From Ideonella sp. (GTDB taxonomy: Bacteria > Pseudomonadota > Gammaproteobacteria > Burkholderiales > Burkholderiaceae_C), in contig JABTUC010000002.1 of assembly GCA_015075545.1 (NCBI GenBank), positions 248,001 through 312,000 of the forward strand: a stretch of DNA of 64,000 bases. The letters are read 5' to 3'. This document shows, piece by piece, positions 58,630 to 60,352 of this stretch. The position numbers and the translations under genes were made by a program. Each line of letters begins with the position of its first letter. The first letter of the stretch is position 1. The notes beneath the pieces are model-generated. The model was not told the DNA's origin, searched no databases, and was given only the letters and a program-made list of their open reading frames with translations.

Positions 58630-59694
<1,065 letters not shown>

Positions 59695-59726
59695 TTACGC
59701 GGAGTCACACCGGGTAATCGCTCTGC

Positions 59727-59732
59727 TAGGAT
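59727..59732 (+). promoter_or_regulatory. Putative -10 element of the candidate small RNA
   Basis: TAGGAT at 59727-59732 is a four-of-six match to TATAAT, seven bases before the proposed start of the RNA. Seventeen bases upstream, GTCACA (59704-59709) is a weak -35. It would also lie just upstream of the minus-strand hemB start region. Confidence 0.35.
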
Positions 59733-59738
59733 CGCCCG

Positions 59739-59851
59739 CGAATGATAGCCGCAAGGCTGTCGTTCCCTGCTTTTCCTCCCTGAGCAGGTGCCTTACCGCA
59801 ATGACAGCGATGAGGCTTGCAACCCCGATCCAGATGATCGGGGTTCTTTTT
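59739..59851 (+). ncRNA. Candidate small RNA with four hairpins and an anti-Shine-Dalgarno loop
   Basis: Between hemB and the HemJ-like gene, no frame codes for a plausible protein, but four stem-loops follow one another. SL1: GATAGCC (59744-59750), GCAA tetraloop, GGCTGTC (59755-59761), seven pairs with one U-G. SL2: CCTGC (59766-59770) and GCAGG (59784-59788) with a 13-base loop containing TTTTCCTCCC (CCTCC at 59775-59779), identical to the anti-Shine-Dalgarno core of 16S rRNA. SL3: GCCTTACCGC (59790-59799) with GCGATGAGGC (59807-59816), one mismatch. SL4 is an intrinsic terminator ending at 59851. A -10-like TAGGAT (59727-59732) fits a start near 59739. It could be a trans-acting RNA or the leader of the next gene. 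No homologue has been tested. Confidence 0.6.
59821..59851 (+). terminator. Intrinsic terminator (3' end of the candidate small RNA)
   Basis: A perfect 10-base-pair stem, AACCCCGATC (59821-59830) with GATCGGGGTT (59836-59845), loop CAGAT, then C and five T (59847-59851). This is a textbook factor-independent terminator, yet it lies 60 bases upstream of a gene start, so it ends an independent short transcript or works as an attenuator for that gene. Confidence 0.85.
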
Positions 59852-59911
59852 GCGTGCATCGGCGCACCATGCGAGCAGTGCGTCGCCGCACCGCCTCGAT
59901 AATCGGGCGCG

Positions 59912-60352
59912 ATGGAAGCGGCGTACCTGTGGCTCAAGGCGATTCACCTCGTGTTCGTCGCGAGCTGGTTCGCCGGCATGTTTTACCTGCCGCGCCTGCT
60001 CGTCAATCTGGCTGGTGTGGCCGCCGACAGTCATGCCGAACGCGAGCGCTTGTTGTTGATGTCGCGACGGCTGTACCGCTTCGCCAACTTGCTGATGGTG
60101 TTGGCGCTGGTGTTCGGTGTGTGGCTGTGGCTCGGCTTTCCGAACTGGCGAGGCTTCGGCCACGCGTGGCTCGACCTCAAGCTGGTGCTGGTGGTCGCCG
60201 CGGTCGGCTACCAGCATGCGTGCGGCAGGCTGCTGCAGGCATTCGAGCGCATGCGCAACCGGCGCAGCGAGCGTTGGCTGCGCGTGTTCAACGAGTTCGC
60301 GATCGTGCTCTTCGCGGCGATCGTGGTGCTGGTGGTGGTCAAGCCGCTGTGA
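59912..60352 (+). CDS. hemJ: HemJ/CopD-family membrane protein (probable protoporphyrinogen oxidase)
   Basis: A 146-residue inner-membrane protein with four hydrophobic helices. The N-terminal signature LWLKAIHLVFVASWFAGMFYLPRLLV is that of HemJ (His12 and W/F-A-G in helix 1), and LMSRRLYRFANLL, KLVLVVAAVGYQHACG and RVFNEFAIVLFA follow in HemJ order. HemJ oxidises protoporphyrinogen IX in many bacteria without HemG or HemY. The usual YH motif reads YQH. Neighbouring hemB, divergent across the candidate RNA, supports a heme role. CopD-like copper protein is the alternative. Confidence 0.8.
   Translation: MEAAYLWLKAIHLVFVASWFAGMFYLPRLLVNLAGVAADSHAERERLLLMSRRLYRFANLLMVLALVFGVWLWLGFPNWRGFGHAWLDLKLVLVVAAVGYQHACGRLLQAFERMRNRRSERWLRVFNEFAIVLFAAIVVLVVVKPL

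Follow-up and report, generated by a model that had tools for sequence, protein, structure and literature searches.

The anti-hemB small RNA between hemB and hemJ of Ideonella sp. and its possible descent from a sigmaE-driven RNA of the polA-engB locus

The gap between hemB and hemJ in Ideonella sp. raises the question of which RNA it encodes and what such an RNA would do there. A preliminary description of the 64,000-nt stretch of DNA analysed here (the window) had placed in this gap four adjacent hairpins, one of them with an anti-Shine-Dalgarno loop, and had taken them for an independent regulatory RNA, with an attenuator of hemJ as the alternative and toxic small RNAs of betaproteobacteria among the known RNAs with such motifs. 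Taken jointly, we consider it probable that the feature is the only detected anti-hemB copy of its genome, that it has its own sigma70-type promoter and represses translation by masking Shine-Dalgarno (SD) sequences, and that its ancestor was an RNA under sigmaE control at the polA-engB locus.

A catalogued small RNA with four hairpins

All four hairpins were found in the place assigned to them (SL1, SL2 with a CCUCC loop, SL3 and the terminator SL4; Table 1), and the fold of 59736-59851 reached -56.9 kcal/mol compared to -32.3 +/- 3.5 kcal/mol for dinucleotide shuffles (z -7.0; 0/200). The gap had been described as coding for no protein. In agreement with this, protein coding is not apparent in the three overlapping ORFs of the hairpin region, for which a Pfam search gave no match, and the flanking genes encode ALAD (hemB) and a UPF0093 protein (hemJ). 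The SL2 loop comprises 9 nt in the minimum-energy fold, or 13 nt if its stem is limited to the five Watson-Crick pairs CCTGC/GCAGG. Since the 16S rRNA 3′ end of the same genome reads GGATCACCTCCTT, this loop has CCTCC in common with the anti-Shine-Dalgarno, as had been claimed.

Table 1. Features of the hemB-hemJ region (positions in the window)
Feature	Position	Strand	Details	Basis
hemB (delta-aminolevulinic acid dehydratase), divergent neighbour	58630..59688	-	PF00490, E=3.8e-137	
sigma70-like promoter, putative	59704..59732	+	GTCACA 59704-59709, 17-nt spacer, extended -10 TGCTAGGAT (TAGGAT 59727-59732)	read by eye
Predicted transcript, ~112 nt	59740..59851	+	start 7 nt past -10	match of other-order model R1 also begins at 59740
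SL1	59740-59765	+	11 pairs, GCAA loop (GNRA); 5′ hairpin outside the Rfam match	fold; 8/11 pairs compensatory, 31 sequences
RF02837 (anti-hemB) match	59764..59851	+	model positions 1-81 of 81	61.3 bits, cut-off 49.5, E=6.9e-12
SL2	59766-59788	+	anti-Shine-Dalgarno loop TTTTCCTCCCTGA, CCTCC 59775-59779	fold; loop and stem letters in 52 model-derived loci
SL3	59790-59816	+		fold; 4/9 pairs with compensatory changes
SL4, intrinsic terminator and U tract	59821-59851	+	hairpin 59821-59845, then CTTTTT	terminator scan, fold
hemJ (UPF0093), downstream neighbour	59912..60352	+	PF03653, E=3.9e-39	

When the whole window was searched with cmscan, RF02837 (anti-hemB) was the sole match over a cut-off. 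The match begins past SL1, lies beside hemB as the family does, and is the only RF02837 match of the genome. In a set of 60 relatives, including the genome itself, RF02837 matched at E up to 0.001 in 51 and over the cut-off in 48. The preliminary description had proposed an Rfam search and had counted a match to a well-known family as evidence against its interpretation; such a match was obtained, and the window RNA is a real but already catalogued small RNA, not new as an RNA. What stands of that interpretation is a small RNA in its own right whose anti-SD loop is conserved, which is borne out by the RF02837 match, its occurrence in these 48 genomes and the covarying stems described below; membership in the toxic RNA family and the idea of a hemJ attenuator are not supported.

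In Burkholderia cenocepacia the RNA is known as ncS04, which is listed as independently transcribed and is 105 nt long, with 5′ ends from dRNA-seq, a RACE-confirmed 3′ end and a Northern blot; Hfq binding has been reported in work cited there, and the qPCR table of the paper gives no significant change of ncS04 under any of its conditions (PMC5688073). A copy in B. pseudomallei was located via Rfam (PMC3521395), and Bc7 of a review (PMC6321483) is taken to be the same RNA as anti-hemB/ncS04. In the parts of the literature consulted, no function is established for the family. MtvR was weighed as another name for this RNA and set aside; it is described as 136 nt long and restricted to the B. cepacia complex. 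RF02837/ncS04/Burkholderia RNA 7 shares with the window RNA the full-length match, the hemB neighbour, the anti-SD loop, the terminator and a similar predicted length. The Burkholderia type differs by its upstream GGTATATSAT and by engB downstream, whereas the window has hemJ and a longer, GNRA-capped SL1.

Below the cut-offs, the window locus matched, among others, 6C (19.6 bits), the toxic small RNA RF02278 (19.1 bits, cut-off 50) and Pseudomon-1/ErsA, RF01719 (15.8 bits, cut-off 50), while no match of sX13 (RF02232) to the window region was listed up to E=10. The toxic betaproteobacterial RNAs are double-hairpin RNAs for whose CU-rich regions a masking of ribosome-binding sites is predicted; overexpression of one member, ncS27, slows growth (PMC5688073). 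Membership of the window RNA in RF02278 would agree with the similar loop and terminator hairpin, with a weak alignment at 59758-59851 and with the CU-rich single-stranded region complementary to ribosome-binding sites that both have. However, its score is far below the cut-off and compares to 61.3 bits for RF02837, and the toxic RNAs have two hairpins and three to five copies per Burkholderia genome (PMC5688073). The Ideonella genome gave no RF02278 match, though the same search rang in no control genome. We give this membership next to no credence and reject it on score; the window RNA may share a mode of action with the toxic RNAs.

The preliminary description had also suggested checking the conservation of the stems. 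In an alignment of 31 relatives (31 of the 37 loci with an exact window-type SL2; six without hemB or hemJ were omitted), 12 of 27 pairs showed changes on both sides, compared to a column-shuffle mean of 4.8 (0/500 as high) and to 0-7 for slid structures. The covarying pairs fall in SL1 and SL3 (Table 1), with two weak SL1 pairs being unpaired in 14/31 and 7/31 sequences. SL2 is invariant in this alignment because the loci were selected on an exact SL2. The 5′ hairpin SL1, not covered by the Rfam model, shows covariation and is part of the RNA. Among 52 loci derived from the Rfam model, the third pair of SL2 is C-G in 33 and T-A in 16, and CCTCCCTG is found in 51, all 52 having been anchored beforehand on CTCCCTG (one locus without it was left out). 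The anti-SD loop is retained while the flanking stems covary. These observations establish family membership, a predicted structure with covariation, a conserved loop, a terminator and the neighbourhood.

Promoter and gene neighbourhood

The -10-like element noted earlier is present as part of an extended -10, with GTCACA 17 nt upstream (Table 1). The site matches 8/12 consensus letters, its -35 being a poor match, and for this reason a promoter scan with a 9/12 threshold reported no site at the window locus. A start 5-8 nt past the -10 gives, by arithmetic, a transcript of 111-114 nt. The same arithmetic for Burkholderia ambifaria (5-9 nt past the -10) gives 102-106 nt, in agreement with the mapped B. 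cenocepacia ncS04 (105 nt); SL1 is therefore most likely within the transcript, and the published ncS04 drawing may already show it.

To compare promoters, loci L001-L054 were sorted by kinship, and at least 120 named loci (L055-L174), picked by the exact loop pattern and uninformative on loop conservation, were grouped without taxonomy by neighbour gene and promoter motif. The presence of hemJ in the hemJ-adjacent group (46 loci), of hemB in the group with hemB beside (34 loci, a few of which are of the window's type) and of the -10 motif in the Burkholderia type (18 loci), a group set by its own -10 motif, is thus given by construction. The promoter and synteny counts cover 169 of 175 loci, the others having been dropped as identical or for lack of upstream sequence. 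In the window's family type, the extended -10 was found in 51/80 loci compared to 5.2 expected (22/34 kinship-sorted, 1.7 expected; 29/46 hemJ-adjacent, 3.5 expected) and TTG-N15-19-TA in 45/80 compared to 4.7 expected (17/34, 1.6 expected; 28/46 hemJ-adjacent, 3.1 expected), with shuffles that keep single-base composition only, as also for the strict sigmaE and rpoE counts below. Both motifs were near the shuffle expectation in the other four locus groups. The window RNA would have its own sigma70-type promoter and a transcript of about 112 nt.

HemB, HemJ, EngB and PolA were searched in 198 loci. Among the kinship-sorted loci of the window's family, 27/34 had the order hemB(-)/RNA/hemJ(+), three hemB alone and four none of these genes; in other families of the order, 15/19 had hemB(-)/RNA/engB(-), three had engB(+) on the left and one had none. 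Among the matches listed, with hemJ or hemB given by the grouping where it defines the group, named loci showed hemB/RNA/hemJ in 42/46 and hemB/RNA/engB in 30/34 (hemB beside) and 15/18 (Burkholderia type). The 18 named loci with neither hemB nor hemJ, again among the matches listed, comprised one polA/RNA/engB locus and 17 without all four genes.

The attenuator of hemJ suggested earlier would be a cis-acting leader formed by the hairpins in the hemJ 5′ region, with a conditional terminator. The RNA does lie on the hemJ strand, with 60 nt from its T run to the hemJ start, and hemJ follows it in most loci of the window's family. However, in the 15/19 loci of other families the RNA is retained with engB, encoded on the other strand, and not hemJ as the following gene, so that it does not stay with hemJ across relatives. 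The RNA also has a terminator of its own. Moreover, the B. cenocepacia RNA is listed as independently transcribed with a confirmed 3′ end (PMC5688073). A hemJ attenuator is thus rejected by synteny, and a cis-acting leader of hemJ appears very improbable.

Several loci depart from the common arrangement. In L005, L040 and L047, from other families of the order, engB is on the left and on the RNA's strand and hemB was not seen, a rearranged neighbourhood. Genome G026, from the window's family, has a second match over the cut-off (L044) without hemB or hemJ within 1.5 kb, and the same SL2 loop without a hemB or hemJ match in the stretch was found in L044, L075, L076, L081, L083, L087, L132, L136 and L163. 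Some of these loci are likely second copies, as in Caenimonas sedimenti, where L132 occurs alongside the hemB-hemJ locus L066. Two pattern matches in Nitrosospira briensis (L108), among the matches listed, are tandem copies. The window also has an inverted repeat, CCGGTGT...ACACCGG (59689-59713), that directly adjoins the start codon of hemB. Its left part, CCGGTGTTACGCGGAGTCACAC, recurs unchanged in same-genus loci (L015, L021, L027 and L031) and with a single difference in L038; the right arm is not retained in all.

The RNA could alternatively act as a cis-antisense regulator of hemB, in line with the name given by Rfam, by overlapping the 5′ untranslated region of this gene and base-pairing with it. 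A divergent hemB lies beside it in 30/34 loci of the window's family and in 15/19 of other families, and hemB is the predicted target of Bc7, for which the review names Salmonella RybB as homologue (PMC6321483). On the other hand, 52 nt separate the predicted RNA start from the start codon of hemB, and an overlap therefore needs a hemB transcript starting within the RNA. In other orders, moreover, the same RNA is located by polA-engB, and the second copy of G026 is away from hemB. We therefore regard antisense control of hemB as improbable.

RNAs of the polA-engB locus and sigmaE-type promoters

In a class sample of 185 genomes, RF02837 was over the cut-off in 10 (two of them from the window's family) and matched at E up to 0.001 in 89; because it also rings below the cut-off in 3/14 control genomes, the weakest matches deserve doubt. 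Of the 87 genomes that gave a match and do not belong to the window's family, we used the best-scoring 28 loci, 20 of which are below the RF02837 cut-off. Among these best 28, polA is beside the RNA in 18, engB in 20, either gene in 24 and neither in 4. At the best RF01719 (ErsA) match, polA lies to the left and engB is absent from the stretch. The polA-engB locus that characterises ErsA/Pseudomon-1 is not that of the window RNA (hemB-hemJ) but is shared by many RF02837 relatives of other orders. Tandem RNA copies were seen in G230 (four, L274), G209 (two, L179) and G165 (two, L187).

A covariance-type model, R1, was built from 26 of the 28 other-order loci (L179 and L191 were left out) and contains no Burkholderiales. 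Because MAFFT placed the SL2 stem unevenly, SL2 is missing from its RNAalifold structure of 18 pairs, and R1 therefore leans on sequence, SL1 and SL4; its E-values are rough. In the window, R1 matched 59740-59859 with 42.1 bits (E=3.7e-9), the sole match at E up to 1, which places the window RNA in the proposed polA-engB grouping with C-rich loops. Over 18 sources (141 kb; 16 Burkholderiales loci hand-picked from 169, the window and the ErsA locus L264) it gave 18 matches at E up to 1, a single one in each source and always at the RNA. A second search with R1 recovered two sX13 loci (26.1 and 22.7 bits) and the ErsA locus (25.7 bits), all with scores far lower than those of the RF02837 loci. 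Spot 42 of E. coli, with the same locus polA-RNA-yihA(engB), differs in that it was not found by R1 at E up to 10.

Cross-detection was also seen between the Rfam families, although RF02837, RF01719 and RF02232 have no common clan. In the class sample, 5/7 sub-cut-off RF01719 matches fall on an RF02837 match (G114, G123, G203, G215 and G230, not G093 and G148), and 3/8 sub-cut-off RF02232 (sX13) matches do so (G141, G196 and G230), the other five not. Seven loci (L176, L181, L189, L190, L195, L200 and L201) match RF02837 plus, below the cut-off, RF01719, RF02232 (sX13) or RF02344 (ar14), all without a clan in common; such multi-family scores hint that the group may extend to RNAs of alphaproteobacteria.

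The other-order polA-engB RNAs have the SL1-SL2-SL3-terminator layout of the window RNA and, in most cases, a CCTCCC loop, and the model made from them finds the window; they differ in being flanked by polA and engB, in their sigmaE-type promoter (19/28) and in often having C-rich SL3 and terminator loops. sX13 has C-rich-loop hairpins and the polA locus in common with them and is weakly found by R1, whereas the window is not listed for RF02232 and sX13 acts without Hfq (PMC3771888). ErsA/Pseudomon-1 likewise lies on the polA side of the locus, has a sigmaE-type promoter, a 5′ hairpin and a terminator and is weakly found by R1, but the locus examined (L264) has no SL2 anti-SD loop and the score of the window is low. 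The link of anti-hemB to the other polA-engB RNAs is strong, and that to sX13 and ErsA suggestive. Our literature search found no work joining anti-hemB with ErsA, sX13 or a sigmaE promoter, which is weak evidence of novelty, subscription journals being mostly outside the search. One review covers both ErsA and Bc7, and its Bc7 passage does not link them (PMC6321483).

Upstream of the 169 loci, GGAACTT-N15-18-TCTNA was found with 10 or 11 of 11 matches in 31, compared to 0.5 expected from dinucleotide shuffles. The window locus (L001) is not among these matches, and no such sigmaE/AlgU-type site was found for it. A stricter pattern, KGAACTW-N15-17-TCW, was found in 20/29 loci when the other orders were taken with the ErsA locus (expected 0.06), in 19/28 without it, in 15/19 loci of other families of the order and in 1/34 of the window's family. 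Among the matches listed, named loci had it in 8/34 (hemB beside), 0/18 (Burkholderia type), 4/18 (neither gene) and 0/46 (hemJ-adjacent).

A strict-like pattern with TCT was also found upstream of rpoE in 10/17 genomes compared to 0.03 expected, these genomes having been picked for a sigmaE-looking RNA promoter (one of 18 rpoE loci was too short). This fits RpoE autoregulation. RybB, the RNA named above as homologue of Bc7, is sigmaE-dependent. The best RpoE match of the Ideonella genome, which is 85% complete, scored 54.5 bits (cut-off 236) compared to 265 bits in a genus mate (G004), and RpoE was also below the cut-off in G026 and G035, two other members of the window's family that were searched. 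A loss of sigmaE could accompany the promoter change in the window's family.

Predicted function and descent

The analysis points to translational repression as the most likely function, with the loop pairing to the SD sequences of predicted targets: UUUUCCUCCCUGA would pair with SD sequences, many mRNAs would be repressed, and Hfq would probably assist the window RNA. In sX13 of Xanthomonas, which is always downstream of polA, C-rich loops and G-rich motifs near the translation starts of the repressed mRNAs are needed for repression and Hfq is not (PMC3771888). ErsA of Pseudomonas, from the polA-engB intergenic region, is described as AlgU-dependent and as repressing algC, aided by Hfq, and also oprD.

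Searching for TCAGGGAGG-N4-10-ATG gave 33 matches in 20 genomes compared to 8 for the reversed control. We claim no conserved extended target, as among 30 of these loci, which were fetched and translated, a single protein pair recurs, which looks like an internal stretch of a glyA-type gene; this speaks against SD masking. Read by eye, the window has no GGAGG before the start codon of hemB or hemJ, and for that reason both are unlikely SD targets. The SL2 loop might instead bind a protein or the ribosome directly, which would be in line with a long, strongly conserved loop for which no conserved long target was found. sX13 with its C-rich loops acts on mRNAs, however (PMC3771888), and we consider such direct binding unlikely.

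We infer from synteny, promoter type and cross-detection that the ancestor would have been a small RNA driven by sigmaE and encoded at the polA-engB locus. In the Burkholderiales its left neighbour would have changed from polA to hemB, and in the window's family its right neighbour would have become hemJ and its promoter sigma70-type, with the loop being kept. In the wider form of this masking and descent reading, anti-hemB, sX13, ErsA and unnamed polA-engB RNAs are one ancient envelope-stress (sigmaE) RNA that masks SD sequences via C-rich loops and that, after the swap of polA for hemB, became constitutive in the window's family; we lean towards this wider form, with some reserve.

The window RNA itself is ordinary, a conserved and catalogued small RNA, and the connection at the level of the family is the part worth following. 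If true, the wider reading indicates how a family without known function is likely to act and what is likely to have regulated it originally. It would also account for a misleading name: since the RNA would descend from the polA-engB locus and hemB would be a later neighbour, anti-hemB would reflect the neighbour and not the target. Furthermore, it would take up the question, left open by the authors of the sX13 study, whether the polA locus of other bacteria encodes such RNAs (PMC3771888). The family would then offer a natural experiment, in which the promoter of one RNA is of the sigmaE type in some families and of the sigma70 type in another.
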